Assembly (NCBI GenBank): GCA_017882905.1
Contig: JADGOO010000051.1
Location: 1-58,139 of the forward strand
Direction of reading: 5' to 3'
DNA length: 58,139 nucleotides
DNA from: Acidimicrobiia bacterium
Lineage (GTDB): Bacteria; Actinomycetota; Acidimicrobiia; IMCC26256; PALSA-610
Shown: positions 29,557 through 51,952 of the stretch, one piece after another
Layout of the letters: each line of letters begins with the position of its first letter
Position numbering within the stretch: position 1 is the first letter of the stretch
Made by a program: the position numbers and the translations under genes
The notes under the pieces: model-generated
The model's input: the letters and a program-made list of their open reading frames with translations, nothing else
Told to the model about the DNA's origin: nothing
Database searches by the model: none

Positions 29557-31065
29557 CTACGAAGTTGGCGGTACCGGCTTCGTCTCGGCGCTCCGACACG
29601 TTGCCCCGACGCACTTCTCGAGTGGCGCCAGATAGGCATGCCACTGCGCCAGCACGGCCGCCGATGTGGTGCCGGCGAGGTTCTGGAGCTCGTCGGGGTC
29701 GGTCGACAGGTTGTACAGCTCGCGTTCGCCGGTCGTGTACTCCACATAGAGGGAGTGCGCCGTGCGCACCCCTTCGTAGGTGGGGATCACCGCCGGTTCG
29801 GCCTTGGCGAGGACGCCCTTGCCGGCGGTCTCGATATCGAGGTCGCCCGCGAGCTGTTCGGGCGCGTGTTCGAGCAGATAGCCGTCGCGCCAGTCGGTGG
29901 GCGTCGCCGCGCCGTGCCAGATGTCGAGCATCGAACGACCGTCGGCGGTCGACGGCACCGTTGCACCGGCGACTGCGGCAATCGTCGGCGCGATGTCGAC
30001 GTTGCCGGTGAGCGCGCTCGAGTGCGATCCGGCCGTGATGCCCGGGCCCCGCACGTAAAAGGGAACGTGGATGTCGTCGTCGTACGGGGTGCGCTTCCCC
30101 GCCGCGAGCCGGTGCTCGCCGAGATGGAATCCGTTGTCGGAGGTGAAGACCACGTAGGTGTCGGAGAGGATCCCGTCGTGTTGCAGTTCCGTCATCAGCT
30201 CGGCGACTCCCCGATCGACGGCTTGGAGCGAACGGATCCGTCGGCGGTACAGGTCGTCGCTCGCCGCAATCACCGTGGGCGAGAGCTCCGGCAGCTTGCG
30301 CAACCAGGCCGGCTTGTCGGAGACATCGGCCTCGTTGAACGAGGGCGGCCGCGGCGCGATCGCGTTGGGGAACAGCTTCATGTCGCGCGGCGCCGGCGTG
30401 GCGGGCTGGTGAGGCGCGAAGTACGCGAGATCGAGGAAGAACGACTTGCCGTGTTGCGCTTCGCTGTGGATGAACTGCTTGGCGTACGCCGTGTAGGCGT
30501 TCGTGCCGTAGTCGGCGGCGGCGTGCGCGCGGTGGATCTTCGTTCCGTTGTGGATGAGGTCGTAGTTGTACTCGCCGTAGGCCGCGGGCGAGTCGATCGC
30601 ACCCCACCATTGCGTCCAACCCGGCGGCTGGTAGGTGCGCCCGGCGGGAACCGGATAGCCATTCAGGTACTTGCCGATCAGCGCGCTGTCGTAGCTGCCC
30701 GACTGCAGCCACGTGGCAATCGTCGATTGCTCGCCCTTGCGGTGGTACAGAGCTTGAAAGCCTCCGTTCGGCCCGGCGTTGGCGAACACTCCCGTGTTGT
30801 GCGCGTATTGACCGAGGATCATCGATGTGCGCGACGGGCAGCACAGCGAGTTGCTGATGAAGTAGTCGTCGAGCGTCATGCCCTGGCTCGCGATGAGCTG
30901 GCGCACATGCGGGAGGTACGAGACCTCGCGCAGGTCGAGGTCGTCGGTGAGCACGACGACGACGTTCGGACGGCTCGGCTTCTTGAACCCGTGCGAGCTT
31001 CCGCCCGAGCACGCAGCCAGCGCCAGCAGGGCGATAACAATCGCAACGGAAGTGAGGCGGCGCAC
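29557..31065 (-). CDS. sulfatase lipoprotein
   Basis: Extracytoplasmic, membrane-anchored sulfate ester hydrolase of the alkaline-phosphatase superfamily, 502 residues. The signal peptide ends in the lipobox LALAAC, lipidated at Cys19. The metal-binding PNVVVVLTDD (33-42) and the formylglycine motif CCPSR (75-79, Cys75 converted) are intact. GKYLNGY and SDNGFHLGEHRL complete the site. It is closest in style to N-sulfoglucosamine or glucosamine-6-sulfatases, so a sulfated polysaccharide is a reasonable guess. The GTG start follows TAGGGT (31075-31080) by 9 nt. No formylglycine-generating enzyme is in the window. Confidence 0.9.
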   Translation of the reverse strand: MRRLTSVAIVIALLALAACSGGSSHGFKKPSRPNVVVVLTDDLDLREVSYLPHVRQLIASQGMTLDDYFISNSLCCPSRTSMILGQYAHNTGVFANAGPNGGFQALYHRKGEQSTIATWLQSGSYDSALIGKYLNGYPVPAGRTYQPPGWTQWWGAIDSPAAYGEYNYDLIHNGTKIHRAHAAADYGTNAYTAYAKQFIHSEAQHGKSFFLDLAYFAPHQPATPAPRDMKLFPNAIAPRPPSFNEADVSDKPAWLRKLPELSPTVIAASDDLYRRRIRSLQAVDRGVAELMTELQHDGILSDTYVVFTSDNGFHLGEHRLAAGKRTPYDDDIHVPFYVRGPGITAGSHSSALTGNVDIAPTIAAVAGATVPSTADGRSMLDIWHGAATPTDWRDGYLLEHAPEQLAGDLDIETAGKGVLAKAEPAVIPTYEGVRTAHSLYVEYTTGERELYNLSTDPDELQNLAGTTSAAVLAQWHAYLAPLEKCVGATCRSAETKPVPPTS

Positions 31066-31133
31066 GAGCGCCGGACCCTAGGCGGAGGTTCACGGCGCCC
31101 CGGCGCGGCTCTCAGGTTACGTACGCTGCGCGC

Positions 31134-31637
31134 GTGCAATCGGCGCAACCACACGACCGGGCGAGGCCGTCAGGACCACCGCGACTCCTGGTCGTATGGC
31201 ATTCCCGAACCGGTGGAGCTCGCGCGTTGGCCGACGCGCTCGTTCAGGGTGCGTGCGATCCTGAGGCCGGCGACATCGACGTCGTGGTGCGCCGAACCCC
31301 CGATGCGAGCGCCCGCGACGTGCGCTCGTGCAACGCGCTCGCGCTCGTGACGCCCACCCATTTCGGCTACATGAGCGGTCTCACAAAGGACTTCTTCGAG
31401 CGAGTGTTCCTCGCGTGCCTCGACAACACCGTCGGCCTGCCGTGGGCGCTCGTGGTCAAGGGCACGACCGATGCCTCGGGCGCGGTGCAGAGCGTCGAGC
31501 GGATCGTGACCGGCTTGAAGTGGCGCGCGATCGCACCCCCGCTCGTGGTACAGGGAGACGTGGATCAGCGCGCGCTCGATGCCGCGCACGAGCTGGGCCA
31601 GACGCTCACGGCCAGTCTCGACGCCGGCCTGTTCTGA
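31134..31637 (+). CDS. flavodoxin-family FMN-binding protein
   Basis: 167 residues with the FMN phosphate loop WHSRTGGARALADAL and the isoalloxazine-side segment THFGYMSGLTKDFFERVF, as in WrbA- or NADPH-dependent FMN-reductase-like proteins. It probably binds FMN and acts as an oxidoreductase or electron carrier; the partner is unknown. GTG 31134 lies 6 nt after -10 box TACGCT (31122-31127). It leads a plus-strand run with the EthD-like and DMT genes. Confidence 0.72.
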   Translation: MQSAQPHDRARPSGPPRLLVVWHSRTGGARALADALVQGACDPEAGDIDVVVRRTPDASARDVRSCNALALVTPTHFGYMSGLTKDFFERVFLACLDNTVGLPWALVVKGTTDASGAVQSVERIVTGLKWRAIAPPLVVQGDVDQRALDAAHELGQTLTASLDAGLF

Positions 31638-31670
31638 GATGCCAGAATCGGCGTCGATGAGGGGCGCACC

Positions 31671-32423
31671 ATGAACAAGGTCCAGGTCGGCTTCTTCTCC
31701 TTCACGGAGATCACCGACCCTGCCGAGCACCATGCCTACAACGAGTGGCACATGCTCGACCACATGCCGGAGCAGTACCCGATCCCGGGCGTCGCCTACG
31801 GCCAACGGTGGGTGCGCACGCCGGCGTTGCGCGCGGCGTCGCTGGTGGCCGCCGACTCTCCGTTCGACCCGGTGCACTACGTGACGCTCTACCTGATGAC
31901 CGACCCGGTCGATCGCACGTTGCGCGACTTCTACACACTGGGCGGCGACCTCCGCGCGCTGGGTCGCTTCCACGCCTTTCGCCGCTCGCACCTGTCGGGG
32001 CCGCTGCGGTTCCTCGAGTCGACGGTGGCCCAACGCGTGCTGGTCTCGGCCGACGCGGTGCCGTACCGCCCGCACCGCGGCGTGCACGTGATCGTCGAGC
32101 GAGTCGAGCAGCACGATGCCGACTACCTCCAGTGGTGCCACACGCATCATGCGACGGCGCTGTGCGCGCTCGAGGGCGTGGCCGGCGTGTGGCAGTTCGC
32201 AACGAGTCCGGCGTACAAGGACCACGTGTGGGAGCCCGGCAATCGCCGCGTCACGGTGTGCTGGCTCGACGGCGACGTGAACGAGACGAGCGCCACCGCC
32301 CACCGGCTCGACCGAGTACGACGCGAGCGCGCCGCGGGCCTCACCACCACGGAGCTCTCCAGCGGCTTCGAGACGATCACGCCGTGGCAGTGGAGCTGGT
32401 TCGACGACCCGCGCCACGCCTGA
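31671..32423 (+). CDS. tandem EthD-like (dimeric alpha-beta barrel) protein
   Basis: I do not recognise a specific family. The 250 residues look like two ferredoxin-like repeats. The first, residues of about 1-50, has YNEWHMLDHMPEQYPIPGVAYGQRW; the second, about 140-185, has YLQWCHTHHATALCALEGVAGVWQF. This W..H..EH...PGV pattern is that of EthD and related ring-cleavage or monooxygenase accessory folds. It has a good Shine-Dalgarno, GAGGGG, 6 nt before the ATG. The function is unknown. It lies between a flavodoxin and a DMT transporter in one transcription direction. Confidence 0.5.
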   Translation: MNKVQVGFFSFTEITDPAEHHAYNEWHMLDHMPEQYPIPGVAYGQRWVRTPALRAASLVAADSPFDPVHYVTLYLMTDPVDRTLRDFYTLGGDLRALGRFHAFRRSHLSGPLRFLESTVAQRVLVSADAVPYRPHRGVHVIVERVEQHDADYLQWCHTHHATALCALEGVAGVWQFATSPAYKDHVWEPGNRRVTVCWLDGDVNETSATAHRLDRVRRERAAGLTTTELSSGFETITPWQWSWFDDPRHA

Positions 32424-32438
32424 GATCGCACCGACTGC

Positions 32439-33275
32439 ATGGCGATCGCACTGAGCCTCGTCGGCGCGATCGTCTTCGGTTGCGCCGACTTCTGGGGTGG
32501 CCTCGCCACCCGCCGGTCCGACGCCACAGTCGCGGTGGTGGTCATCACCCAGGTCGCCGGGCTGGCTGCGCTCATGGTGATCGCTCCGTTGTCGGGAGCG
32601 ACCCACGTGGCCGTGTCGGATCTGGTGTGGGGCGCGGGCGCAGGGCTGTGCGGCGCCACCGGACTCTTGTTCTTCTACCGCGCGCTCGCCGACGGCACGA
32701 TGAGCATCGTGTCGCCGATCACCGCGGTGGTCTCGGCGATCGTGCCGCTGCTCGCCGGCGTCGCGCTCGGTGACCGACCCGCAGCCTGGGCGTGGGCCGG
32801 GATCGTGATCGGACTCGGCGCCATCATCTTGTTCGGCGGCGTGCCCCACCCGCACGGCGTGGCGCGTGTCGCGGTCACCGGCGCCGTGCTCGGCGGACTC
32901 GGCTTCGGCACGTTCTTCGTGCTGCTGGCGCGCAGTGGATCGACCGCGGGCATGTGGCCGCTCGTGGCCGCCCGCGGCTGTTCCGGTGCGCTGCTCTTCG
33001 CGTGGGCGAAGGCGCGCCGCCAACCGATCGGGCTACCCCGCGCGGTGTGGAAGATCGCGCTCGCCGCGGGCATCGGCGACGTGAGCGCCAACGCCCTGTA
33101 CCTCGCGGCCACCCACCACGGCCTGCTCGCCGTGGTGGGCGTGATCATCGCGCTCTACCCGGCGAGCACCCTCGTGCTGGCGCGCATCGTCTTGCACGAG
33201 CGCCTCCAGCCGTTGCACTGGGTGGCGCTCGTGGCAGCCGCCGGTGCCGTCACGATGATCGTCGTCGGCAGCTGA
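32439..33275 (+). CDS. EamA/DMT-superfamily membrane transporter
   Basis: 278 residues, about ten transmembrane helices in two EamA halves, starting IALSLVGAIVFGCADFWGGLATRR. It is a paralog of the protein encoded at 5779-6696 (both have a CADFWGG/TSDFCGG start and an APV or SPI-TAVVSAIVPLL segment). The substrate is unknown. It lies 15 nt after the EthD-like gene, probably in an operon. Short complementary segments AGCTGA/TCAGCT (33270-33296) straddle the convergent stops. Confidence 0.85.
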   Translation: MAIALSLVGAIVFGCADFWGGLATRRSDATVAVVVITQVAGLAALMVIAPLSGATHVAVSDLVWGAGAGLCGATGLLFFYRALADGTMSIVSPITAVVSAIVPLLAGVALGDRPAAWAWAGIVIGLGAIILFGGVPHPHGVARVAVTGAVLGGLGFGTFFVLLARSGSTAGMWPLVAARGCSGALLFAWAKARRQPIGLPRAVWKIALAAGIGDVSANALYLAATHHGLLAVVGVIIALYPASTLVLARIVLHERLQPLHWVALVAAAGAVTMIVVGS

Positions 33276-33290
33276 CCCACCGGGCGCTGC

Positions 33291-33779
33291 TCAGCTCTTG
33301 AGTGCCGTCTCGATCGCGCTGACGAGCGGCTCCGCTTCGGGCTCGACCATCGGCGAGAACCGCGCGATGACGCTGCCGTCGCGATCGACGAGGAACTTCT
33401 CGAAGTTCCAGCGGATGTCGCCGTCGTGGCCTTCGGCGTCGGCCGTCTTGGTGAGCTCCTGATAGAGAGCGTGACGGTCGTCGCCGTTCACGTCGATCTT
33501 CTCGAAGATCGGGAACTGCACCCCGTAGTTCACCGAGCAGAACTCGGCGATCTCGTCGGGGCTGCCCGGCTCCTGGGCACCGAATTGGTTGCACGGGAAC
33601 CCGAGCACCTCGAAGCCCTGGTCGCCGTAGCGATCGTGCAGGTTCTGGAGACCCGTGTACTGCGGCGTGAGGCCGCACTTCGACGCCACGTTCACCATGA
33701 GCGTGACCTTGCCGGACTGCTCGGCGAGCCGGCCGGACTTGCCATCGAGTGAGCTGATCGCTGTGTCGTAAAGGGACAT
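33291..33779 (-). CDS. glutathione peroxidase family protein (Cys-type thiol peroxidase)
   Basis: 162 residues. The peroxidatic Cys lies in ASKCGLTPQYTGL; a conserved GFPCNQFGAQEPG (with the likely resolving-Cys region) and WNFEKFLVDRDG follow. Bacterial Cys-GPx enzymes usually use thioredoxin rather than glutathione; actinobacteria lack glutathione, so thioredoxin or mycoredoxin is the likely reductant. ATG 33779 is 7 nt after -10 box TACCCT (33787-33792). It is divergent from the aminopropyltransferase, with start codons 31 nt apart. Confidence 0.92.
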   Translation of the reverse strand: MSLYDTAISSLDGKSGRLAEQSGKVTLMVNVASKCGLTPQYTGLQNLHDRYGDQGFEVLGFPCNQFGAQEPGSPDEIAEFCSVNYGVQFPIFEKIDVNGDDRHALYQELTKTADAEGHDGDIRWNFEKFLVDRDGSVIARFSPMVEPEAEPLVSAIETALKS

Positions 33780-33809
33780 GGAGCGCAGGGTACTCATTAG
33801 CCTCGGGTC

Positions 33810-34748
33810 ATGGAAGACGCCGGGATCTGGCTGCGCGAGCTGATCACGCCCTACGACGTGTACCTGCACGGTGCGAGCGAGATCCTGCTGTGGCGGCGCA
33901 CCGAGTTCCAAGAGATCTGCATCGTGCAGACCGAAGCCTTTGGCAAGAAGCTGTTCCTCGACGGCATCGTCCAGTCGAGCGAGGCCGACGAGTTCATCTA
34001 CCACGAGGCGCTCGTGCAGCCTGCGATGCTGACGGCAGGGATGCCGCGCCGGGTGCTCGTGCTCGGCGGCGGCGAGGGCGCGTGCCTGCGCGAAGTGCTG
34101 CGCTGGGACACCGTCACCGAGGCGGTGATGATCGATATCGACGCCGAGGTCGTGAGTGCGTGCCGCGCCCACCTCCCCGAATGGAGCCAGGGCGCCTTCC
34201 ACGATCCCCGGGTACAGCTCCTCCACACCGACGCGGTGCAGTACCTCGAGCACGTGCGCGAGCCCTTCGACGTGATCATCTCCGACATGACCGACCCGGT
34301 CGAAGACGGACCTTCCACGTTCTGCTTCACGCGTGAGTACTTCCGGCGCGTGCAAGCAGCCCTCGGCGACCACGGCGTCTTCGCGCTCCAGGCCGGTCCG
34401 CTCTCACCACCAGAGATCTCGCTCCACGCCAAGGTGTTGCGCACCATGGAGCTCGAGTTCGGGCACGTCCAGGCGTATCCGTGCAACGCCGCCGTCTACG
34501 GCCGCCCGCTCGGCTTCGCTGTCGCGAGCCGCACGCCGATCCACGCGCGCCTCGATCCCGAGCGCACGGCACCGGTGCTCGACGCGCACGTGCGCGGCCC
34601 GCTGCGCTACATCGACGCGCACGTGGCGCGTGGTCTCATGGCCACCCCACCTTTCGTGCGCGCGGCCATCGACGCGAGCGACGTGGTGTACACCGACGCC
34701 GTTCCGCCCCGAACCGCGCACGCCGCGGGATGGGAGGCCGGCGCATGA
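33810..34748 (+). CDS. speE: polyamine aminopropyltransferase, thermospermine-synthase-like
   Basis: Transfers aminopropyl from decarboxylated SAM to a polyamine. The 312 residues carry the SAM-binding GGGEG (86-90, instead of GGGDG) and SDMTDPVEDGP at 158-167, where classical spermidine synthases have SSDP. These features, with YHEALVQPAM and QAGPLSPPE, match the plant ACL5/bacterial thermospermine or agmatine-aminopropyl group better than canonical SpeE. ATG 33810 is 6 nt after -10 box TAGCCT. It overlaps the DinB-MOSC gene by ATGA. No SAM decarboxylase gene is nearby. Confidence 0.85.
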   Translation: MEDAGIWLRELITPYDVYLHGASEILLWRRTEFQEICIVQTEAFGKKLFLDGIVQSSEADEFIYHEALVQPAMLTAGMPRRVLVLGGGEGACLREVLRWDTVTEAVMIDIDAEVVSACRAHLPEWSQGAFHDPRVQLLHTDAVQYLEHVREPFDVIISDMTDPVEDGPSTFCFTREYFRRVQAALGDHGVFALQAGPLSPPEISLHAKVLRTMELEFGHVQAYPCNAAVYGRPLGFAVASRTPIHARLDPERTAPVLDAHVRGPLRYIDAHVARGLMATPPFVRAAIDASDVVYTDAVPPRTAHAAGWEAGA

Positions 34749-35719
34749 TCGAGCAGTGCCACGAGTGCGGCTTCGACAGCGCGGCGTACACCGACGACGA
34801 CGTGCAGGGTTCGTTGCGCGCTGTCGCACCCTGGTGGGGCCTGCTCACCGAAGGCGTCGCCGACGATGTCCTGCACGCCCGCCCGGCCGATGGCGTGTGG
34901 TCGGCGATCGAGTACGGCGAGCACACGGCCGAGGTGCTGCGCCTGCTCACGTTCGGACTGAGCTGGATGCTCACCGACGACAACCCTGTGTTCCCGTCGG
35001 TCGAGCCGCCCCCGTTGAGTGCCCCGCCGTCGTCGGCGTCGCTCGCCGATGTGAGCGCGGCGCTCGCCACGGCCGCTGCGGAGCTGGGTGCGCAGACTGC
35101 GCAGGTCAGTGCCGGGCTCGGCGCACGCACGGCGACGCTCGGCGACGGCTCGGCGATCGACGCCGCGTGGCTAGCCCGCCACGCCGTGCACGACGCGCTG
35201 CACCACCTGCACGACGTGGGCCGCAACCTCGTAGCCCTGGGCGCCGGAGCCGCACCACACCGCGGCGTCGTCGAGCAGGTGAGCTCCTCCGATGGCGGCG
35301 TCCCGAAGCGAGCCGTACCGTCCGCGCAGGTGGGCCCACGCGGGCTCGAGGGCGACCGCCAGGGAACGCGACGCCATCATGGGCGCCAGTGGCAGGCGCT
35401 GTGTCTCATGAGCGCCGAGGCCATCGAGCGCATGCAGGCCGAGGGCCACCCGATCAGCTTCGCCGCCGCGGGCGAGAACATCACCGTGCGCGGCATCGAC
35501 TGGGCCGCGCTGCGGCCCGGCAACCGCGTGCAGATCGGCGGGGCGCTCTGCGAGGTGACGGTGCCCGCTCTGCCGTGCGCGAACAACGCCCAGTGGTTCT
35601 CCGACCGCGACTTCATGCGCATGCACCATGAGCACCACCGAGGTGAGACCCGCTGGTACGCAAGCGTCGTCGACGGCGGCACCGTGTGCGCGGGCGACGA
35701 CGTCGTGCTCGAGCCGTGA
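34745..35719 (+). CDS. DinB-like / MOSC-domain fusion protein
   Basis: 324 residues. Residues 1-165 are a DinB/maleylpyruvate-isomerase-N-like four-helix domain starting CHECGFD, with candidate metal ligands His60 and the HDALHHLHD cluster (149-157). Residues of about 180-320 are a MOSC domain (molybdenum-cofactor sulfurase C-terminal type): SDGGVPKRAV, GLEGDRQ, ENITVRGIDWAALRPG, and the conserved Cys278 in LPCANN. MOSC proteins bind sulfur at this Cys or reduce N-hydroxylated compounds. DinB domains in this phylum often use thiol cofactors such as mycothiol. The function of the fusion is unknown. It is translationally coupled to the aminopropyltransferase and followed by a sulfatase. Confidence 0.75.
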   Translation: MIEQCHECGFDSAAYTDDDVQGSLRAVAPWWGLLTEGVADDVLHARPADGVWSAIEYGEHTAEVLRLLTFGLSWMLTDDNPVFPSVEPPPLSAPPSSASLADVSAALATAAAELGAQTAQVSAGLGARTATLGDGSAIDAAWLARHAVHDALHHLHDVGRNLVALGAGAAPHRGVVEQVSSSDGGVPKRAVPSAQVGPRGLEGDRQGTRRHHGRQWQALCLMSAEAIERMQAEGHPISFAAAGENITVRGIDWAALRPGNRVQIGGALCEVTVPALPCANNAQWFSDRDFMRMHHEHHRGETRWYASVVDGGTVCAGDDVVLEP

Positions 35720-35747
35720 GTCGAACGAATCAGAGGATCACCGCTCG

Positions 35748-37994
35748 ATGAGCACACTACGAATCGGACGAACGATCGCCGAGTCGACGCCGGAGTTCGC
35801 GCCGCTGCCACGCCCGCCGCAGGGCGCACCCAACGTGGTGATGATCGTGCTCGACGACACCGGCTTCGGCCAGCTCGGCTGCTTCGGGTCCGACATCGAA
35901 ACGCCGAACATCGACGGCCTGGCCGCGGGCGGGCTGCGATTCAATCGGTTCCACGTGACCGCGTTGTGCTCGCCGACGCGAGCGTGCCTGCTCACCGGGC
36001 GCAACCACCACAGCGTCGGCATGGGCTTCCTGCCCGACATCCCGATCGGCTTCCCCGGCTACAACGGCCGCATCCCCGACGCCACACCAACGTTGCCGCG
36101 CGTGTTGCGCGCGCATGGCTACAACACGTTCGCGGTGGGCAAGTGGCATCTCGCACCGCGATGGGAGCTGAGTGCGTCGGGCCCCTTCGATCGATGGCCA
36201 CTCGGGCTCGGCTTCGAGCGCTACTACGGCTTCCTCGGCGGCGACACGAACCAGTTCGCGCCCGAGCTCGTGCGCGACAACGGGTTCATCGAGCCGCCGC
36301 GCACTCCCGACTCCGGCTACCACCTCACCGAAGACCTCGCCGATCAGGCGATGCGCCTCGTCGTCGATCAACAGCACGCCACGCCGGGCAAGCCGTTCTT
36401 CTTGTACTTCGCCACCGGCGCGATGCATGCGCCACACCAGGCACCCCGAGAGTGGATCGACCGCTACGCCGGCCGCTTCGACGCCGGTTGGGATGACTGG
36501 CGCGACGGCGTGTTCGCCCGCCAGCAGACGCTCGGCGTGGTGCCCGCGGGCACGGCACTGCCGCCCCGTCCGAGCTGGGTCCCCGAATGGAGCTCGCTCG
36601 CCGACGATCGCCAACGGCTCTTCGCCCGCATGATGGAGGTGTTCGCGGGCTTTCTCTCGCACACCGACGCGCAGATCGGCAAGCTGATGACGTTCCTCGA
36701 ACGGCTCGGCGTGCTCGACAACACGATCGTGCTGTTGCTCTCCGACAACGGCACCAGCGCGGAGGGCGGCCCGCACGGATCGTTGAACGAGCACCGCTTC
36801 ACCCACGACATGCTCGACGATGTCGGCGACACGATCGCGCACATCGACGATCTCGGCGGGCCGCGCGCGTACAACCACTACGCATGGGGTTGGGCGTGGG
36901 CCGGCAACACGCCCATGCGGCTGTGGAAGCGCTACACGTGGCTCGGTGGCGTACGCACGCCGCTCGTGATGCACTGGCCGGCCGGGCTCGACGCGTCGGG
37001 CGAGATACGCAGCCAGTTCGCGCACGCGATCGACGTGATGCCCACCGTGCTCGACTGCATCGGGCTCGACGCGCCGGCTGGCATGCACGGCGCGTCGCTG
37101 CGCCCGGCGCTCACCGATCTCGCGGCACCGAGCGCGCGGTCCACCCAGTACTTCGAGATGCTCGGCTCCCGGGCGATCTTCCACGACGGCTGGAAGGCCG
37201 TCACGGACCACATCGGCAAGCAGCTCACGGTGGAGCGCGAGCTGCTCGAAGGCAGCCTCGACTTCGGCACCGACACGTGGTCGTTGTTCCATCTCGACGC
37301 CGACTTCGCCGAGGCCGACGACCTCGCCGCGCAGGAGCCGGAACGACTCACCGAGATGATGGAACTGTGGTGGGCCGAGGCCGGTCGCTTCGGCGTGCTG
37401 CCGCTCGACGACAGCTTCATCGGTCGTGCCGTCGCGCTCGAGCCGCGCCCCTACATGCCGGCCCACCGAACCCGCTACCTCGCGGGCGGTGGTGCGATCT
37501 CCGAAGACGCGCTGCCGCCGCTCGGCGCGGGCTTCCTGCTGCGCGCCACGGTCGACACCGTCGCGCCCGGCGCGCTCTGCGCGCTCGGCGACTGGAACAA
37601 CGGCTTCGCGCTCTACGTGCAGGGCGGCGAGCTCATCCTCACCGTGAACCTGTTCGGCGCCATCACTCGCGTGGCCGCGCCCATCCGCGATGCACGGGTG
37701 CTGGGGTTCGACTACCGGCGGGGCCGCGGCGACGCGCGCACGCTCGTGCTGACGGCCGACGGCGATGATCTTGCGAGCGCGCCCTTGCCCGCCGACCTCC
37801 CGTTCCGATGGCAGATCGCCGGTGGCGGCTTCACGGTCGGCTTCGACCGCGGCTTCCCGGTGTGCGACGACTACGAGCCGCCGTTCGCGTACACAGGCGG
37901 TCTGCACGAGATCGAGATCGAGGTCCCGTTCCTCGCCCCGCGCGCCGCGCCGCCCGCCGCCGAGACGATCGCCCGCGCCCTCCACCACGAGTGA
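35748..37994 (+). CDS. arylsulfatase, cytoplasmic type
   Basis: 748-residue sulfatase with no signal peptide. PNVVMIVLDDTGFGQLGCFG is the metal site, the formylglycine motif is CSPTR (Cys74, Thr in place of Ser), and AVGKWHLAP and LLLSDNGTSAEGG follow. A C-terminal beta-domain (about 600-745) is the extra region of the large AtsA-like group. It is probably the third gene of the aminopropyltransferase operon, 28 nt after DinB-MOSC. ATG 35748 is preceded by a modest AGAGG. It faces a homologous sulfatase across a long hairpin. An activating formylglycine-generating enzyme is needed but not seen here. Confidence 0.92.
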   Translation: MSTLRIGRTIAESTPEFAPLPRPPQGAPNVVMIVLDDTGFGQLGCFGSDIETPNIDGLAAGGLRFNRFHVTALCSPTRACLLTGRNHHSVGMGFLPDIPIGFPGYNGRIPDATPTLPRVLRAHGYNTFAVGKWHLAPRWELSASGPFDRWPLGLGFERYYGFLGGDTNQFAPELVRDNGFIEPPRTPDSGYHLTEDLADQAMRLVVDQQHATPGKPFFLYFATGAMHAPHQAPREWIDRYAGRFDAGWDDWRDGVFARQQTLGVVPAGTALPPRPSWVPEWSSLADDRQRLFARMMEVFAGFLSHTDAQIGKLMTFLERLGVLDNTIVLLLSDNGTSAEGGPHGSLNEHRFTHDMLDDVGDTIAHIDDLGGPRAYNHYAWGWAWAGNTPMRLWKRYTWLGGVRTPLVMHWPAGLDASGEIRSQFAHAIDVMPTVLDCIGLDAPAGMHGASLRPALTDLAAPSARSTQYFEMLGSRAIFHDGWKAVTDHIGKQLTVERELLEGSLDFGTDTWSLFHLDADFAEADDLAAQEPERLTEMMELWWAEAGRFGVLPLDDSFIGRAVALEPRPYMPAHRTRYLAGGGAISEDALPPLGAGFLLRATVDTVAPGALCALGDWNNGFALYVQGGELILTVNLFGAITRVAAPIRDARVLGFDYRRGRGDARTLVLTADGDDLASAPLPADLPFRWQIAGGGFTVGFDRGFPVCDDYEPPFAYTGGLHEIEIEVPFLAPRAAPPAAETIARALHHE

Positions 37995-38001
37995 CAGACC
38001 T

Positions 38002-38054
38002 CCCAACCAGCGTTGCGGATACGTCACCATGACGTATCCGTCACGCTGGTTGGG
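38002..38054. terminator. long near-perfect palindrome between two sulfatase genes (bidirectional terminator)
   Basis: Left arm 38002-38026 and right arm 38030-38054 are complementary at 23 of 25 positions, the two mismatches being adjacent, around a CCA loop. The left side starts 8 nt after the plus-strand stop; the right arm abuts the stop of the minus-strand sulfatase. No U-tract. Confidence 0.7.
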
Positions 38055-40355
38055 TCACTGCTCGCTCATGATGGCGGCGAACTCGCTTTCCGGGTCGACG
38101 ATCGCGGTGCCCTGCACGTCGATGAGCGCACCGACGATGTCGACGTTGGCGGTGAACGGCGCCGTGTAGTCGGGACTGATCGCCGGCCCCACCTCGTAAC
38201 CGCAGGTGAGCCCCGACCCGGTGATCGAGAACCGCGCCGCGGTGAACGACGGCACGTTGCCTTCGCCCACCGTCGCGTCATCGACCACGAGGCGTACGTC
38301 GGCCGAGAAGTCGCCCGGCGCGGTCACCTCGGCGCGCAACACGTGCCGGCCGGGGCCGACAACGGTGTTCGACTCGACGCGGTCGATGCGCCGACCTACG
38401 TGGTTGTGCACGTAGGTGAGCCGCCCGTCGAGCAGGTAGAGCACCCAGCCGCCGAGCACGGAGCCCAACCCGACGAGCACACCGTTCCCCACCACGCCTT
38501 CAGGCACCTCGATCGTGACCGTGATGGCATGGGTTCGATTGCGCACGTTCGGTGCCACCAGCTCGGGGATCATGGCACCGTGCGCACGCAGCACCGTGCG
38601 CGAACGATCGGCGCGCCGGCGCGGGCGCGGGTTCATCAGCGCGGCGAGCGGCCGGTTGTCGAGCGGGAGCACGTCGTTGCGGCGCGCTTCGCTCCACCAG
38701 AGCTCGATCATCGCGGCCAGCCGGCTGGGCTCACTCGCGGCGAGGTCCACGCACTCCGAGAAGTCGTTGCGCTTGTCGTAGAGCTCCCACACGTCATCGT
38801 CGAACGGCGCGTCGGGATCGAGACCGTCGCCATACATGCCGCCGAGAGGCTTGAACGTGACGGCCTTCCAGCCGTCGTGATAGATCGCCCGTGAGCCCAG
38901 CATCTCGAAGTACTGCGTGGTGTGTCTCTCGCCCGCGTCGCGGCCGCCGGCACCGAGCAGGTACGCGAAGCTCGCACCGTCGATCGGCGTCTGCGGCACG
39001 TCGGCGATCACGGCCGGCGCTTCGATACCGCACAGCTCGAGGACGGTCGGCAGCACGTCGATCGCGTGCGCGAACTGATGCCGGATCGCGCCGCGCTCAC
39101 CGACCGGCACGGCCGCCGGGAAGCGGATGATGCACGGGTCGGCGATGCCGCCTTCGTGCACCTCGCGCTTCCAGCGCTTCAACGGCGTGTTGCCCGCCAT
39201 CGTCCAGCCCCACGGGTAGTTGTTGTGCGCGGTGGGCGTGCCGAGCTCGTCGATGCGCTCGCGTAGCTCACGCCGGCCGGCGGGAATGCCGTTCCAGAGC
39301 CGCGCGTCGTTGATCGACCCGCGCTCGCCACCTTCGGCGCTCGCACCGTTGTCACTCACGAGGATCACGAGCGTGTCGTCGAGCTCGCCCGTCGCTTCGA
39401 GATGGCCGAGCAGGCGCCCGATCTGATCGTCGGTGTACGACAGGAACGCGGCGAAGCACTCCATGAAGCGGGCCGCGACCGCCTGGTCTTCCGGAGCGAG
39501 CGACTCCCACGCCGGCACCCAGGGAGGGCGGGGCGCGAGCTGGGTGCCCGGGCGCACGAGTCCCGACGCGAGCTGGCGCTCGTGCGTGCGCGTGCGCCAT
39601 GCGTCCCAGCCGTCGTCGAACTGGCCGCGGTAGCGATCGATCCATTCGCGGGGCGCGTGGTGCGGCGAATGGCACGCACCAGTGGCGAAGTAGAGCAAGA
39701 AGCGTTGCGTGTCGTCGACCGCGCGCAGATCGCCCAGGTACTCGATGGCCTTGTCGGCGAGATCGGCACTGAGGTGGTAGCCCTCGGCGGGCGAACGCGG
39801 CGGGCGCACCGAGTGGTTGTCGTGATAGAGCGCGGGCACGAACTGATGCGTCTCGCCGCCGTGGAAGCCGTACCACCGTTGGAAGCCGCGGCTCACGGGC
39901 CAGGTGTCGCGCGGCGCGGCCATGTGCGTCTCGTCTTCAGGCGTGAGATGCCACTTGCCCACGGCATAGGTGGCGTACCCGTTGGCGCCGAGGATCTCGC
40001 CGAGGAACCCGTTGCGCTTCGGGATCCGGCCCGAGTAGCCGGGGAAGCCCACCGCGAGGTCGGCGACGCGTGCCATGCCGTTGCGATGATGGTTGCGGCC
40101 GGTGAGCAGGCACGAGCGCGTGGGCGAGCACAGCGCCGTGGTGTGGAAGTTCGCGAGCCGCACTCCGTGCGCGGCCAAGCCGTCGATGTGCGGGGTGGCG
40201 ATGTCGGAGCCGTAGCAGCCGAGCTGCGCGTAGCCCACGTCGTCGAGCACGATCACCAGCACGTTGGGTGCACCCGCCGGCGGTTCCGGTTCCGGCGGCC
40301 ACCACGGCGTCGACTCACGCCACGTCGGGCCGATGACACCCTGGAACTCGTCCAC
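38055..40355 (-). CDS. arylsulfatase, cytoplasmic type (homolog of 35748-37994)
   Basis: 766 residues, homologous over the full length to the facing sulfatase: PNVLVIVLDDVGYAQLGCYG, the formylglycine motif CSPTR (Cys76), AVGKWHLTP, VSDNGASAEGG, YFEMLGSRAIYHDGWKAV and the C-terminal beta-domain. No signal peptide. The start is GTG 40355 with a strong Shine-Dalgarno GGGGGAG 7 nt upstream, so this transcript, unlike many neighbours, is leadered. The inverted paralog pair probably arose by duplication and targets related sulfate esters. Confidence 0.92.
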   Translation of the reverse strand: MDEFQGVIGPTWRESTPWWPPEPEPPAGAPNVLVIVLDDVGYAQLGCYGSDIATPHIDGLAAHGVRLANFHTTALCSPTRSCLLTGRNHHRNGMARVADLAVGFPGYSGRIPKRNGFLGEILGANGYATYAVGKWHLTPEDETHMAAPRDTWPVSRGFQRWYGFHGGETHQFVPALYHDNHSVRPPRSPAEGYHLSADLADKAIEYLGDLRAVDDTQRFLLYFATGACHSPHHAPREWIDRYRGQFDDGWDAWRTRTHERQLASGLVRPGTQLAPRPPWVPAWESLAPEDQAVAARFMECFAAFLSYTDDQIGRLLGHLEATGELDDTLVILVSDNGASAEGGERGSINDARLWNGIPAGRRELRERIDELGTPTAHNNYPWGWTMAGNTPLKRWKREVHEGGIADPCIIRFPAAVPVGERGAIRHQFAHAIDVLPTVLELCGIEAPAVIADVPQTPIDGASFAYLLGAGGRDAGERHTTQYFEMLGSRAIYHDGWKAVTFKPLGGMYGDGLDPDAPFDDDVWELYDKRNDFSECVDLAASEPSRLAAMIELWWSEARRNDVLPLDNRPLAALMNPRPRRRADRSRTVLRAHGAMIPELVAPNVRNRTHAITVTIEVPEGVVGNGVLVGLGSVLGGWVLYLLDGRLTYVHNHVGRRIDRVESNTVVGPGRHVLRAEVTAPGDFSADVRLVVDDATVGEGNVPSFTAARFSITGSGLTCGYEVGPAISPDYTAPFTANVDIVGALIDVQGTAIVDPESEFAAIMSEQ

Positions 40356-40445
40356 GTTCGCGCTCCCCCGATCGGTGTGCTGCCGCCGCGCCGGCGGTCA
40401 CCTTCGGCCGACACTAGGGAGTTGCCGATCTATCCTGCACGCCGC

Positions 40446-41288
40446 ATGCGAGCGTTCGTGCTGTCGGGTGGAGCGAGCCTCGGCGCCGTGCAAGTGGGCA
40501 TGTTGCGCGCGCTCGACGAAGCCGATGTCCGCCCCGACCTCCTGGTCGGCACCTCGGCCGGCGCGATCAACGCGGCATGGGTGGCAGGGCATCCCGGACC
40601 CGGTCAGATCGAGGGTCTCGCCGAGCTGTGGCTCGGGTTGCGGCGCAACAAGGTCTTCCCCACCCGGCCGCTGCTCGGCCTGTTGGGCTTCCTCGGCCAC
40701 ACCGATCATCTCGTTCCGCCCGGCGGGCTGCGCGGGCTCGTGAAGCCGCACCTCACCTTCGACCGCCTCGAAGATGCCAAGGTGCCCATCCACGTGGTGG
40801 TCACCGAAGCGGTGAGTGGCCGCGAGCTGGTGCTCTCGACCGGCAGCGCGCTCGACGCGATCGTGGCAAGCGCATCGATCCCCGGTGTGCTGCCACCCGT
40901 CGACATCGAGGGCGTCCTGTGCGTCGACGGCGGCGTGTGCGACAACACGCCGATCTCCGTGGCGCACACCATCGGCGCCGACGAGATCTGGGTGCTTCCC
41001 TCGGGCCACGCCTGCTCGCTGCTCAACCCACCGGTGAGCGCGCTCGCCATGATCTTGCACGCCGTCACGCTGCTCGTGCACCAACGGCTCGTGACCGACA
41101 TCGCGAAGTACGAACCGATCGTGGACCTGCGCGTCGCGCCGCCGCTCTGCCCGCTCGACGTGAGCCCGGCCGATTTCAGCAAGGCCGCCACGCTCATCGA
41201 GCGCTCCTACGTGTCGACGCGCGACTGGATCGAAGCCGGGCAGTTCGACGGCGCGGCGGCCGACATGCTCGAACCGCACACGCACTGA
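40446..41288 (+). CDS. patatin-like phospholipase
   Basis: 280-residue lipid acyl hydrolase with a Ser-Asp dyad. The oxyanion loop is SGGASLGAVQVG near residue 7, the nucleophile Ser lies in GTSAGAIN (GxSxG) near 40, and the Asp is in VDGGVCDNTP near 161. The complete fold has no signal peptide. It is similar to the NTE/RssA-type bacterial patatins. ATG 40446 is 9 nt after -10 box TATCCT (40431-40436). It converges on the Pr6Pr gene. Confidence 0.9.
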   Translation: MRAFVLSGGASLGAVQVGMLRALDEADVRPDLLVGTSAGAINAAWVAGHPGPGQIEGLAELWLGLRRNKVFPTRPLLGLLGFLGHTDHLVPPGGLRGLVKPHLTFDRLEDAKVPIHVVVTEAVSGRELVLSTGSALDAIVASASIPGVLPPVDIEGVLCVDGGVCDNTPISVAHTIGADEIWVLPSGHACSLLNPPVSALAMILHAVTLLVHQRLVTDIAKYEPIVDLRVAPPLCPLDVSPADFSKAATLIERSYVSTRDWIEAGQFDGAAADMLEPHTH

Positions 41289-41298
41289 GACGCGCTCG

Positions 41299-41952
41299 CT
41301 AGGCGTCGGTCTCCGGCGGCGCGGGCCCGACGGCGAGGCGGCGGTCGACGGCCGTGGCCCCGGCCGCGATGCCGAACACGAGCAAGGCGACCCACACGCA
41401 GTTCGCCGCGACCTTGAGATACCCGAGCCGGTCGACATCGATGAACGGGTACGGATACCAGTGGATCGCCGCGCCGCGGATCATCGTGAACGTGACCCAG
41501 GCCACGGGATAGAGCACGGTGGCCGACGCGACGGCGCTCGAGGTGAGCCGGCGTGGGCCGTAGAGCAGCCAGCCCACGATCGCGAGGATCGGCACGACGG
41601 TGTGCAAGAGGTGATCGGCGACGAGCCCCCAGCTGTCGAGCTCGAGGTACGCCCGGAGCGCCACGTGGTACACGATGCCGGTCACGACGATCCCGACGAG
41701 TCCCATGAGGCGCGCCACCCGGAACACGGGTGCTGATGCATCCGGACGTGCGGCGAGCCACAGGCTCGTGACGCCCACGAGGATGTTCGACTGGATCGTG
41801 AAGAACGCGAAGACGTTCAACACGCGCGCCGTCGTGTCGTGGAAGTGCACTCCGTGCATGATGCTTGCCGTCACGAAGAGCTGGACCACCACGCCCACGA
41901 CGACGCACATTCCGGGGGCCGCGAACCAGGCTCGCGCTCGAGTCTGTTGCAC
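41299..41952 (-). CDS. Pr6Pr-family six-helix membrane protein
   Basis: 217 residues with six hydrophobic helices, matching the Pr6Pr (actinobacterial FAR-17a/AIG1-like) family of unknown function. The typical signature IHWYPYPFIDVDRLGY lies between helices five and six. The GTG start at 41952 is chosen because a -10 box TACGAT (41959-41964) is 6 nt upstream. The frame extends to 42108, but that stretch overlaps the divergent P450 coding sequence and is rich in unlikely residues. The start codons of the pair are 35 nt apart. Confidence 0.78.
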   Translation of the reverse strand: MQQTRARAWFAAPGMCVVVGVVVQLFVTASIMHGVHFHDTTARVLNVFAFFTIQSNILVGVTSLWLAARPDASAPVFRVARLMGLVGIVVTGIVYHVALRAYLELDSWGLVADHLLHTVVPILAIVGWLLYGPRRLTSSAVASATVLYPVAWVTFTMIRGAAIHWYPYPFIDVDRLGYLKVAANCVWVALLVFGIAAGATAVDRRLAVGPAPPETDA

Positions 41953-41986
41953 GACACGATCGTACGAGAGCGGGCAGACTGAGTTC

Positions 41987-43171
41987 GTGCCTCCCGTCGC
42001 GCCGATGACCTTGCCATGGGACGACGCGGCTGCGCCTGACCCCGTTGAGGCGCTCCGGGCTGCACGCCGCGACCTTGGCGACCGCTTCTGGATCGAGTCG
42101 GGCAGCACTCGCTACCTGTTCGTGTTCTCGCCCGATGATCTGTCCGCGTTCTACGCACTGGCGGAACGCGACGCGAGCAAGGGCCTCGCCGACTACCGGA
42201 TGCTCGCGCGCAAGCTCCCTCCCGAGCTGTTCGCCGATCGCCGCACCTTCGCCCACGACCTCTTCGGCGCGCACGATGTGGAGGGCTACCTCGACGATCT
42301 CGATGCGGCGATCGCCGCGCAGATCGACACCATGGGCGAGGCGGGCACGCTCGACGTGTTCGAGTGGTCCCGAACGGTCGGGCACCGCCTTGCGCTCGCG
42401 TGCTGGTGCGGCCGCGACATCGACGCCTCCGCCGTGACGTTCGCCGATCTCGTGCGCGACATGGAGGTGCTCGACGGCGCCGACGCATTCGTGCGCCCGC
42501 ACACCACCATCGCCGCCAGCCTCGAGCGCGAGCGGGACGCACTCGCTCGCGTCGAGGCCACGATCGCACAGCGCCTCGCCGACCCCACCCGGATTGCGAG
42601 CTTCCTCGACCTGATCGCCGAGCGATGGGCCGACGGGCCCGACAGCGCCGAGCGCGCCGCCGGCATCGCGGGCGACGTGGTGCTGCTGCACGTGGCCACG
42701 ATGACCAACCTGTTCGCCGCGCTCGGCTGGACGTTCGCCCTGTTGCTCCTCGAGGGCCAAGGCGACGACACGATCGAGGATTGCGCACTCGAGGCGATCC
42801 GCATCGGTCAGCGCTCCATCATGCTGCGCGAGGTGCTGCGGCCCATCGAGTTCGCGGGCGAGCAGCTCGAGCGTGGTGTGCAGATCGCGACGATGCTGCC
42901 GCTCACGAACGAGCGCGCGGGCGGTTGGGACCCACATCGGTGGCGCGACCGAGCGTTGCGCCACGACGTGAACGTCACCACCTTCGGGCATGGCGCGCAC
43001 CGGTGCCCGGCGGCACGCTTCTCCACGACAGCGATCGTGCGCGCCGTCAACAGGGTGCGCGCCGAGTTCGACCTCACGCCCCGCTTCACCGAGCTGCACC
43101 CGCTACCCGGCCAGATCGGCGGGATGGCCCGCGCCGCGGCGCCCTGCCCCGTCGACTACCGGCGCCGCTGA
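41987..43171 (+). CDS. cytochrome P450 with non-canonical I-helix
   Basis: 394 residues. The heme loop FGHGAHRCPAARFS holds Cys340; the ExxR motif is EAIR (269-272). The I-helix region reads LHVATMTNLFAALGW (234-248), lacking the AG.D/E-T acid-alcohol pair of ordinary monooxygenases. It resembles the CYP7/CYP8/CYP51-like branch, some of which do not use a standard monooxygenation cycle. No redox partner is nearby. GTG 41987 is 6 nt after a CAGACT box (41975-41980); ATG 42005 is an alternative start. It converges on an SDR. Confidence 0.88.
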   Translation: MPPVAPMTLPWDDAAAPDPVEALRAARRDLGDRFWIESGSTRYLFVFSPDDLSAFYALAERDASKGLADYRMLARKLPPELFADRRTFAHDLFGAHDVEGYLDDLDAAIAAQIDTMGEAGTLDVFEWSRTVGHRLALACWCGRDIDASAVTFADLVRDMEVLDGADAFVRPHTTIAASLERERDALARVEATIAQRLADPTRIASFLDLIAERWADGPDSAERAAGIAGDVVLLHVATMTNLFAALGWTFALLLLEGQGDDTIEDCALEAIRIGQRSIMLREVLRPIEFAGEQLERGVQIATMLPLTNERAGGWDPHRWRDRALRHDVNVTTFGHGAHRCPAARFSTTAIVRAVNRVRAEFDLTPRFTELHPLPGQIGGMARAAAPCPVDYRRR

Positions 43172-43177
43172 GCTCGT

Positions 43178-43972
43178 TCAGGCTCCGCGGTCTTCCACGA
43201 TCGAGTTCCCTCCATCGACCACGACGACGGTCCCCGTCGTGTATGACGATCCCGGGCGCACGAGGTATGCGACCGCGTGGGCCACCTCGTCGGGCAGCCC
43301 CGGCCGGCCCACCGGCGTGCGGTCACCGGCGGCCCGCTCCGCGGCGGTCGCCGAGCTCGTGTGGATCCAGCCGGGGGCCACGGCGTTCACGGTGATGCCG
43401 TCGGCCGCCACTTCGAGCGCGAGCGCGCGCGTGAAGCCGACCATGCCCGCCTTCGCGGTCGCGTACGCGGATTGCTGTGGCATCGCGACCACGGCACCCG
43501 TGGTCGATGCGATGTTCACGATCCGCCCACCGCCCTGCGCGCGCATCGCGGGGACGACCGCACGCGACATCAGGAACGCGGTTGTGAGGTTGCGGGCGAG
43601 CGTCGCGTTCCAGTCGGCGAGGGAGATCGCCTCGATCGGTGCCGTTGCGTCGTCGCCGTGCGCGACCGACATCATCCCCGCGTTGTTCACCAGCACATCG
43701 AGATGGCCCTCGAGATCGAGCGCCGCACTGACGAGGGCGCCGACGTCACGTTCTTCGGTGAGGTCACCGACGCAGCCGTGCCCGTCGATGCCCAATGCGC
43801 GCAGCTCCTCGACACGGTCGTGGACGCGATCGGTGGTCGCACCGATCACGACGCGTGCACCGAGGAGGCCGAGGTGTCGTGCCGTCGCGATCCCGATCCC
43901 GTTCGGCGATCCGCAGCCGGTGACGAGCGCGACATGACGCGCCAGTGGTTGCCCGCGATCGTCTGTCGTCAC
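43178..43972 (-). CDS. short-chain dehydrogenase/reductase (SDR)
   Basis: 264 residues. The cofactor loop is the spaced variant TGCGSPNGIG; NNAG is near residue 98, the catalytic Ser is in NIASTTG and the Tyr-Lys in YATAKAG. AVAPGWIHTSSAT is typical of FabG- and 3-hydroxyacyl-type SDRs. The substrate is unknown. GTG 43972 is 6 nt after a CAGACT box (43979-43984), the same hexamer used by the facing P450. It may act on the P450 product, which is inference from position. Confidence 0.88.
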   Translation of the reverse strand: MTTDDRGQPLARHVALVTGCGSPNGIGIATARHLGLLGARVVIGATTDRVHDRVEELRALGIDGHGCVGDLTEERDVGALVSAALDLEGHLDVLVNNAGMMSVAHGDDATAPIEAISLADWNATLARNLTTAFLMSRAVVPAMRAQGGGRIVNIASTTGAVVAMPQQSAYATAKAGMVGFTRALALEVAADGITVNAVAPGWIHTSSATAAERAAGDRTPVGRPGLPDEVAHAVAYLVRPGSSYTTGTVVVVDGGNSIVEDRGA

Positions 43973-44006
43973 TGCGCCAGTCTGCCGCGGCGCCGAATCC
44001 CCTGCG

Positions 44007-45188
44007 TCACGCAGGGCGAAGCGTGTTCAGCTCCCGGGCGTTGTCCCGCAAGATGCGCAGCTGCGACGCGGCGTCGAGCTCTTTGATCTCCGGCACGTAG
44101 TCGAGCGGCTTCGGCATCCCCTCGATGTGAGGCCAGTCGGACCCGAAGATCACACGATCGGCACCCATCAGCTCGGTGACCTCGTAGGGGTCGTCCTCCC
44201 AGAACGGGTTGATCCAGATGTGCCGGCGGAACGTGTCGACGGGGTTCTCGCGGTAGTAGCCGGGCGTCTTTTTCACCTGCGAGCCGAGCTTGGCGAACAG
44301 GTCGCGCAGGAACGTGGAGCCGTTCTCGACCGAGGCGATGCGCAGGTTCGGGAAGCGGTCGAAGTGCTTCGCGAACACGAGCGTGATGAGGAAGTCGTGC
44401 GCGGCGCGCTCGATCGAGAACGCCTTGATGCTCGGCTGCCACACCCCGCCGGTGAAGTTCGCGGCGAACCCGTCGTCGGCGTACCCGTTGCTGCTGTAAC
44501 CGCTGTCGCCGGCATGGACCACGACCGTGATGCCGGCCTCGTTCACGAGCGACCAGAAGGGATCGAAGTCGGTGTGGGTGGGCGGCTTCGGCCCGTCGCC
44601 GGTGAACACGGCGGCGGGGCGGATCACGATCACGCGCGCGCCCTCGGCGAGCGCCCACTCGAGCTCGTGGCACGCCCAGCTCACATCGGCGAGCGAGATG
44701 TAGGGCGCCGCGAAGATGCGGTTCTGGTAGTGGAAGCCCCAGTCTTCGCTGAGCCACTGGTTGAACGCTCGGAACGTGTGGTTCACGGCCTCGGGGTCGT
44801 GCTTGAGGAGCTCCTCGTAGAGCACCCCGAGCGTGGGGAAGAGCCACATCGCTTCGAGACCTTGCTCGTCGAGCTTGGCGAGCCGCGCGTCGCGGTCTCG
44901 GTAGGCGGCCGGGATCGGCTCGCGGTCGCGCAGGAACTCGAGCGGGTTGAGTCCGTTCGGGTTGCCGCGGAAGTAGTCGTGCATCGCGCCGGCCTTCGCG
45001 ATCGGGTCGAAGGTGGGGTTCGCCACGGCATGACTCACCCGCCCGCCGACCACGTGGTACTGGCGCCCGTTGATCGTGGCCCACTGCACGCAGCGCGGCC
45101 CGAGGCGAGGATCGAGGTGCCGGGTGAAGGCGTCGAGGGCCTCGTAGTAATGGTTGTCGGCGTCGAATGCGTCGAAGGTCAGCTCCAC
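44007..45188 (-). CDS. amidohydrolase family 2 (ACMSD-like) protein
   Basis: 393 residues from GTG 45188. TIM-barrel metal hydrolase or decarboxylase of the amidohydrolase-2 group; the substrate is unknown. The start FDADNHYYE carries the altered first metal motif (DNHYYE instead of HxH). VVVHAGDSGY, SVENGS and FGSDWPHIEGM carry later metal and catalytic residues. Such proteins often sit in aromatic or xenobiotic degradation clusters. The GTG is chosen because -10 box TAGCCT (45196-45201) is 7 nt upstream; ATG 45212 would place the start upstream of that box. It forms a divergent pair with the 2OG oxygenase. Confidence 0.85.
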   Translation of the reverse strand: MELTFDAFDADNHYYEALDAFTRHLDPRLGPRCVQWATINGRQYHVVGGRVSHAVANPTFDPIAKAGAMHDYFRGNPNGLNPLEFLRDREPIPAAYRDRDARLAKLDEQGLEAMWLFPTLGVLYEELLKHDPEAVNHTFRAFNQWLSEDWGFHYQNRIFAAPYISLADVSWACHELEWALAEGARVIVIRPAAVFTGDGPKPPTHTDFDPFWSLVNEAGITVVVHAGDSGYSSNGYADDGFAANFTGGVWQPSIKAFSIERAAHDFLITLVFAKHFDRFPNLRIASVENGSTFLRDLFAKLGSQVKKTPGYYRENPVDTFRRHIWINPFWEDDPYEVTELMGADRVIFGSDWPHIEGMPKPLDYVPEIKELDAASQLRILRDNARELNTLRPA

Positions 45189-45195
45189 GCCCACC

Positions 45196-45205
45196 AGGCT
45201 AGATG
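45196..45205. promoter_or_regulatory. fused bidirectional -10 element (plus-strand half weaker)
   Basis: AGGCTAGATG. The minus strand reads TAGCCT, 7 nt before GTG 45188. The plus strand reads TAGATG, 13 nt before GTG 45219, leaving a short leader. The shared TA is at 45200-45201. Confidence 0.45.
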
Positions 45206-45218
45206 CGAACATGGGGCC

Positions 45219-51436: not shown

Positions 51437-51886
51437 ATGCCCGCAACCTTGAATCACGTCGCGATCACGCTCGATCCCGAGCTGCTCGACGACGCAGGGC
51501 GCGCCGAGCTGCTCGCGTTCTTCGGCGAAGTGTTCGGCTGGACCGAAGGCGACAACAGCGGCGAGCAGGGCAATCCGCTGATCATGTACACGGGCACCTT
51601 CGGCCAGTTCGTGTACCTGCTCGGCGCCGAGAATCCGCTCCGCGCACCCGAGCTCGATCACTTCGGGCTGATGGTCGACTCGCTCGACGAGCTGCACGCG
51701 ATCGTCGAGCGTGCGAAGGCGTATGGCGCGCACGACGAGCGTGTGCGCATCATCGACGTGCACGCGCGCACCACGACCGGACCAACGCGCGACTACACGC
51801 TCACGAGTGCGTACATCGGTTTCGTGCTGCCACTGATGATCGAGCTCCAGCACCTCGTCGCCGGCCCCGAGCACCAACCAGCGTGA
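51437..51886 (+). CDS. VOC-superfamily (glyoxalase/dioxygenase-fold) protein
   Basis: 149 residues with the paired beta-alpha-beta-beta-beta modules of the vicinal oxygen chelate fold. LNHVAITLD gives a first His ligand, ELDHFGLMVDS a second, and LMIELQHL the Glu. Such enzymes isomerise, epimerise or cleave substrates at a metal centre; the exact reaction is unknown. It starts one base after the alcohol dehydrogenase stop (TGACATG), so it is translationally coupled. Its stop lies within a 17-bp hairpin. Confidence 0.75.
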   Translation: MPATLNHVAITLDPELLDDAGRAELLAFFGEVFGWTEGDNSGEQGNPLIMYTGTFGQFVYLLGAENPLRAPELDHFGLMVDSLDELHAIVERAKAYGAHDERVRIIDVHARTTTGPTRDYTLTSAYIGFVLPLMIELQHLVAGPEHQPA

Positions 51887-51917
51887 CGAGATAGCGCATA
51901 GCGCTATCTCGTCGCGC
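51881..51917. terminator. hairpin containing the VOC stop codon
   Basis: 51881-51897 pairs with 51901-51917 around an ATA loop: 17 bp with one T-G wobble (core GACGAGATAGCGC). The TGA stop (51884-51886) is inside the left arm. It separates convergent VOC and aldo/keto reductase genes. Confidence 0.68.
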
Positions 51918-51952
51918 AAGAAACGGCCGGGTCTCGGCGGGGATTCGGCGAG

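Follow-up and report, generated by a model that had tools for sequence, protein, structure and literature searches.

In our judgement, the closest known kind to the palindrome family described here is that of the REP elements, and the family is a variant of that kind. The GTAG/CGTC REPs are 20-40 bp long, end on one side in an unpaired tag (GTAG or CGTC) and frequently occur as dimers, and the REPs of E. coli are targeted by gyrase (Di Nocera et al. 2013, excerpts of PMC3733652). Genomes with classical REPs often contain more than 100 of them (PMC2817692, in excerpt). The RepRanger survey tabulates predicted palindromic elements for Acidimicrobium ferrooxidans, and regards REPs that follow an ORF within 15 nt as candidates for a part in translational control (excerpts of PMC12306157). 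A further related system is the uptake-signal word of Neisseria and Pasteurellaceae, which is present in hundreds to over a thousand copies, generally 1,000 or more (PMC1852404, in excerpt).

The family shares with the GTAG/CGTC REPs, as those excerpts present them, the character of dispersed intergenic palindromes with variable stems, which mainly follow coding regions and lie between genes in convergent or tandem arrangement; like the CGTC REPs, it has no known dedicated transposase (PMC3733652). It differs from them in consisting of single hairpins of 46-48 nt (mostly 47), mostly paired to their ends and with untagged flanks, and because of this length, and because no unpaired tag is present, it falls outside the GTAG/CGTC super-families. 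In being dispersed, repeated and mainly extragenic palindromes, the copies nevertheless agree with REP elements in the broad sense. The RepRanger entry is a generic prediction count, and the excerpted parts of that survey do not name a 47-nt family with these arms (PMC12306157). With the terminators formed by uptake signals, as excerpted, the family has in common a conserved short word, its inverted pairing and hairpins at gene ends, but those terminators have A/T-rich tails (PMC1852404), whereas the 47-nt family is low in copy number and flanked by C-rich and G-rich sequence. No published description of the 47-nt family was found among the open-access papers listed in literature searches.

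The palindrome between two sulfatase genes

The window (the whole 58,139-nt stretch of DNA that was analysed) contains two convergent ORFs, both matching Pfam Sulfatase (E 1.7e-64 and 1.6e-62), here called sulfatases A and B. The frame of A is open from 35628, and 35748 is taken as its provisional start. By the look of its N-terminal sequence, a − strand ORF at 29557-31065 may encode a third sulfatase. A sequence-only reading had reported a near-perfect 25-nt palindrome between A and B, with its right arm abutting a stop codon, and both observations proved correct. The arms (38002-38026 and 38030-38054) pair at 23 of 25 positions (92% complementary) around a 3-nt loop (38027-38029), which is far beyond chance, and the repeat was the first among 24 inverted repeats listed for the window. 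It scored 19 in a palindrome scan with a cut-off of 14, in which block-shuffled sequence gave no matches. RNA folding of 37980-38070 yielded −56.6 kcal/mol (z −9.5) on the + strand and −56.4 kcal/mol (z −8.4) on the − strand, with none of 200 shuffles as good on either. The stop codon of A lies 7 nt before the left arm, and that of B directly adjoins the right arm.

The true repeat unit is the inner 47 nt, since the outer CCC/GGG is absent from most other copies. This unit scored 66.9 bits on one strand and 63.9 on the other. The features of the locus are collected in Table 1.

Table 1. Coordinates of the palindrome, its repeat unit and neighbouring features in the window
Feature	Position	Strand	Basis
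Palindrome as first read; 25-nt arms, 3-nt loop	38002..38054		Inverted-repeat search and RNA folding
47-nt family unit; outer arms 38005-38013 (AACCAGCGT) and 38043-38051 (ACGCTGGTT)	38005..38051		DNA search and pattern matches
Another copy, decayed; AACCAGCGT preserved as left arm, palindrome core at 51881-51917, no right outer arm left	51876..51922		17.1 bits, E 0.09
Sulfatase A, left neighbour; stop codon 37992-37994	35748..37994	+	ORF list, Pfam
Sulfatase B, right neighbour; stop codon 38055-38057, abutting the palindrome	38055..40355	−	ORF list, Pfam

A dispersed family of 47-nt palindromes

The palindrome of the sulfatase pair is one copy of a dispersed 47-nt repeat family. In its own genome (4.36 Mb in 259 contigs), a DNA search gave matches on other contigs, the best with E 6e-17. 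A pattern made of the outer arms, in which the gap was left free and a total length of 38-64 nt was permitted, matched 12 palindromes, all 47 nt long except for a single one of 48 nt, and nothing with the control. The covariance model built from these 12 copies found 18 sites at E <= 0.001, and a de novo palindrome scan of 478 kb added a copy (C234:638-688). Members of the family made up eight of the 13 strongest palindromes in that scan and held its first six ranks; no palindrome came from shuffled sequence. The genome holds at least 20 copies, a lower bound because the covariance search scored 106 candidates per genome; other genomes contain up to 43 strict pattern matches. Neither the window nor five loci matched any Rfam family at the gathering score, and a known RNA family was set aside on that ground. 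Integron attC sites, which have conserved end triplets, were provisionally set aside because the repeat is short, constant in length and scattered as single copies. Another contig of the same genome (C16, L299:7597-7630) carries an unrelated near-perfect palindrome of 34 nt with repeated GTACCATATGGTAC-like halves.

The distribution of the family was surveyed with two arm motifs. The AACC-arm pattern was present in eight of 58 genomes of the order, which belongs to Acidimicrobiia, and absent from 50, with one control match in one genome; the matches numbered 12 in G000, 39 in G037, 32 in G027, 14 in G010, four in G014, two each in G012 and G042, and one in G036. A sister arm, CGTGCGTC..GACGCACG, was present in seven of the 58 and absent from 51, again with one control match (G007 43, G026 30, G036 5, G016 3, and one each in G003, G050 and G051). 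Since most genomes of the order are without these motifs, the element is dispensable. In a draw of 396 genomes from the phylum three matched, namely the own genome (14) and two genomes of the same class (one each), against one control match; the family is almost absent from this draw. De novo scans of partial sequence found one strong palindrome in G030, three in G004, two in G021 and none in G028 or G020, and none of those found has AACC or CGTGCGTC arms; a rich family is therefore no general feature of the order. The suggestion, drawn from a few ispG loci, of a GCGTC core common to all lineages has support only for the two arm types searched.

Two related observations came from more distant matches. 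In Candidatus Microthrix sp. UBA4742, sites on two contigs (L088 and L118) have the same outer arms, followed by an unpaired stretch and then an inner stem, and are near reverse complements of each other. Among the matches listed, sites far outside the order, in Oscillospiraceae and other Firmicutes (L062, L066, L074, L095 and L100), also fold well; these outer-arm matches may be ordinary terminators picked up by chance, or may be of another kind.

The copies have fixed outer arms (AACCnGCGT/ACGCnGGTT) and variable interiors that are mostly still paired. Across 26 copies from eight genomes, the outer nine pairs were constant save the fifth (21 G-C, four A-U, one unpaired), and inner pairs were of up to four types; the constancy is partly by construction, because copies were selected by their outer arms while the interior was free. 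In the 19 own copies analysed, the interior arms agreed at 9.5 of 12 positions within copies compared with 5.7 of 12 across copies, the poorly paired exceptions being C134 (3/12) and C254 (6/12). Compensated changes were found at nine of 19 pairs in one analysis and 11 of 19 in another. In G007, 15 of 22 copies had identical interior arms against 7.8 expected. The excess in G026 was small, with three identical against 2.8 expected and 1.52 mismatches against 1.80 (P 0.08). By these comparisons, pairing has been clearly kept in two lineages and only weakly, at the variable positions, in the third. Several G007 copies (L352-L371) join left and right arms of two or three interior subtypes, and look as if arms had been exchanged between elements. 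The copies of G026 (L372-L391) differ from one another at a two-base site within each arm, and the two arms vary almost independently.

Placement of copies at gene ends

We then placed the copies relative to genes, using a simple GC3-based gene caller. All 19 own copies lie at gene 3′ ends, nine between tandem genes, none between divergent genes, and ten between convergent genes, which is the recurrence at convergent pairs that the earlier reading proposed to check; on longer stretches, the same caller assigned those on C56 and C254 as tandem, not convergent. Element-free intergenic length is 13% convergent, 56% tandem and 30% divergent, which gives P ~0.001 for zero divergent and 5e-5 for at least ten convergent copies. 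Most own copies are located 3-27 nt from a stop codon, and a few have a called frame running into the element.

About half of the copies in G007 and two thirds of those in G026 could be placed in the same way. The 22 G007 copies, in 20 stretches, comprise ten convergent, 11 tandem and one unassigned, most of them 0-12 nt from a stop codon. The 21 G026 copies comprise 13 tandem, five convergent and three called divergent, most of them 4-16 nt from a stop codon; two of the three divergent calls are doubtful and may be miscalls, since their flanks show a TGA shortly ahead of the element. At several G007 loci (L353, L359, L364, L369 and others) the called frames stop 13 or 24 nt into the element, which itself seems to supply the stop codon there. 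The genes that have the palindrome at their end in the own genome include those for a sigma factor, GcpE/IspG, an alcohol dehydrogenase, a luciferase-like oxidoreductase, an amidohydrolase and an ABC ATPase. The neighbours are functionally unrelated, and three of ten scanned proteins had no Pfam match.

Competing explanations and turnover of copies

The position of the palindrome on the axis between two convergent paralogues had led the earlier reading to suggest an inversion or duplication junction, that is, the junction of an inverted duplication that produced the sulfatase pair. A and B are 46% identical, whereas orthologues of B in other genera reach 71-72% identity with it, so the split between A and B predates their present neighbourhood. 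Among 19 aligned B orthologues (L168-L186, a subset of many more sequence matches to B), none has A within ~1.5 kb and none has the palindrome downstream, although one (L180) stops at the end of B and so carries no information on that side. No relative sharing this gene order was found. Unrelated genes are flanked by the same palindrome as well. On the identity figures and orthologue neighbourhoods we rejected the junction, leaving it next to no probability. An uptake-signal pair of the Neisseria/Pasteurellaceae type, co-opted as a terminator, would present the same geometry of a 9-nt word, inverted pairs and gene ends (PMC1852404, in excerpt). In the own genome, AACCRGCGT occurs 116 times on both strands against 46 for a reversed control, and since this is too low a number compared with ~1,000 or more, an uptake signal is rejected as very unlikely. 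Somewhat less improbable, yet still poorly favoured, is a signal acting at the DNA level, extruded or bound by a protein (gyrase, a nucleoid or a segregation protein), with a placement that follows supercoiling between convergent genes. Perfect symmetry and constant outer arms would suit a dimeric DNA-binding protein, and the gyrase targeting of E. coli REPs offers a precedent (PMC3733652, in excerpt); however, about half of the own copies (9/19) lie between tandem genes, and the interior changes its sequence while pairing stays, so that a folded strand fits better than a fixed binding word. The evidence neither favours nor disfavours the cruciform that the earlier reading also mentioned.

The most serious rival is a non-autonomous mobile element (MITE- or REPIN-like) of little or no host function, which sits at gene ends because it does least harm there. 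Near-identical copies at unrelated genes, above all in G007, speak for it, as does its patchy occurrence in the order. So does the turnover of units, as BP_133 has two adjacent units with differing interiors where BP_132 has one, a net difference of ~111 nt. Against it, no target-site duplication was seen by eye in the flanks inspected (own, G007 and G026 copies), among which there was no clean single-copy empty site. No Y1-type transposase (PF01797, Y1_Tnp) was found in eight element-bearing genomes, several of them incomplete and G007 and G026 not among them; RAYT or IS200-type mobilisation was set aside on this result. The tight clustering after stop codons and the kept pairing also exceed what avoidance of harm would need. 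We regard this explanation as rather unlikely, albeit well ahead of the other rivals. When a transposase gene was sought between copies, the gene between two C205 copies had no Pfam match and that between two G007 copies was a calcineurin-like phosphoesterase.

Other comparisons of relatives also bear on turnover. The element that follows ispG is of the AACC type in the own genome and of the CGTGCGTC type in G026, and other relatives have different hairpins or none at this place. Orthologous copies in BP_132 and BP_133 show a C-G to G-C exchange on both arms, and one copy position is kept between BP_133 and CF_bin.45 at ~73% identity. At several BP_132/BP_133 loci (L221-L223 and L228-L231) the units recur about every 70 bp in short tandem arrays. 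In this they resemble BIMEs, which are arrays of REPs; unlike in BIMEs, alternating orientation is not discernible in near-perfect palindromes, and most copies elsewhere are single.

A candidate role at transcript ends

The earlier reading had also proposed a strong bidirectional terminator. The recurrence at convergent pairs agrees with it, but the lack of a T-tract does not: there were no terminator-like sites within 30000-46000, the 8 nt after each of the 19 own copies contain 0-3 T, and the flanks of the own copies are C-rich before (52%) and G-rich after (53%). The element thus does not qualify as a canonical intrinsic terminator.

What the sequences show is a family of many copies that have one length, constant outer arms, a variable but mostly paired interior and a position closely behind stop codons, and its members probably serve as portable gene-end hairpins. 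Of the explanations considered, we favour, with somewhat more confidence than doubt, a dispersed REP-like 47-bp family of this order that forms hairpins at mRNA 3′ ends in both directions and has spread by copying. A copy transcribed from either side would form a strong hairpin at the 3′ end of the mRNA, which would block read-through, protect the 3′ end of both transcripts, or both, with no need of a U-tract. Copies would spread, perhaps by mobilisation in trans or by recombining with one another, and would be retained where they arrive immediately behind a stop codon. By analogy with the REPs close to ORFs in the RepRanger survey (PMC12306157), hairpins so near to stop codons could also affect ribosome release. 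We hold only tentatively, and with more doubt than belief, to the wider proposal of order-wide, portable 47-bp gene-end hairpins with lineage-specific arms, copied to sites immediately behind stop codons and in some cases providing the stop codon themselves, which would form U-less 3′ ends in both directions and owe their movement to an enzyme that differs from the known REP transposases.

The gain and loss of this palindrome family can be traced between close species. Two questions thereby become testable: whether hairpins lacking a U-tract truly form 3′ ends in these bacteria, and by what means short palindromes are copied in genomes where no RAYT transposase is found. If the favoured explanation is true, the family would represent a possible way for high-GC bacteria to mark the ends of transcripts without a T-tract.
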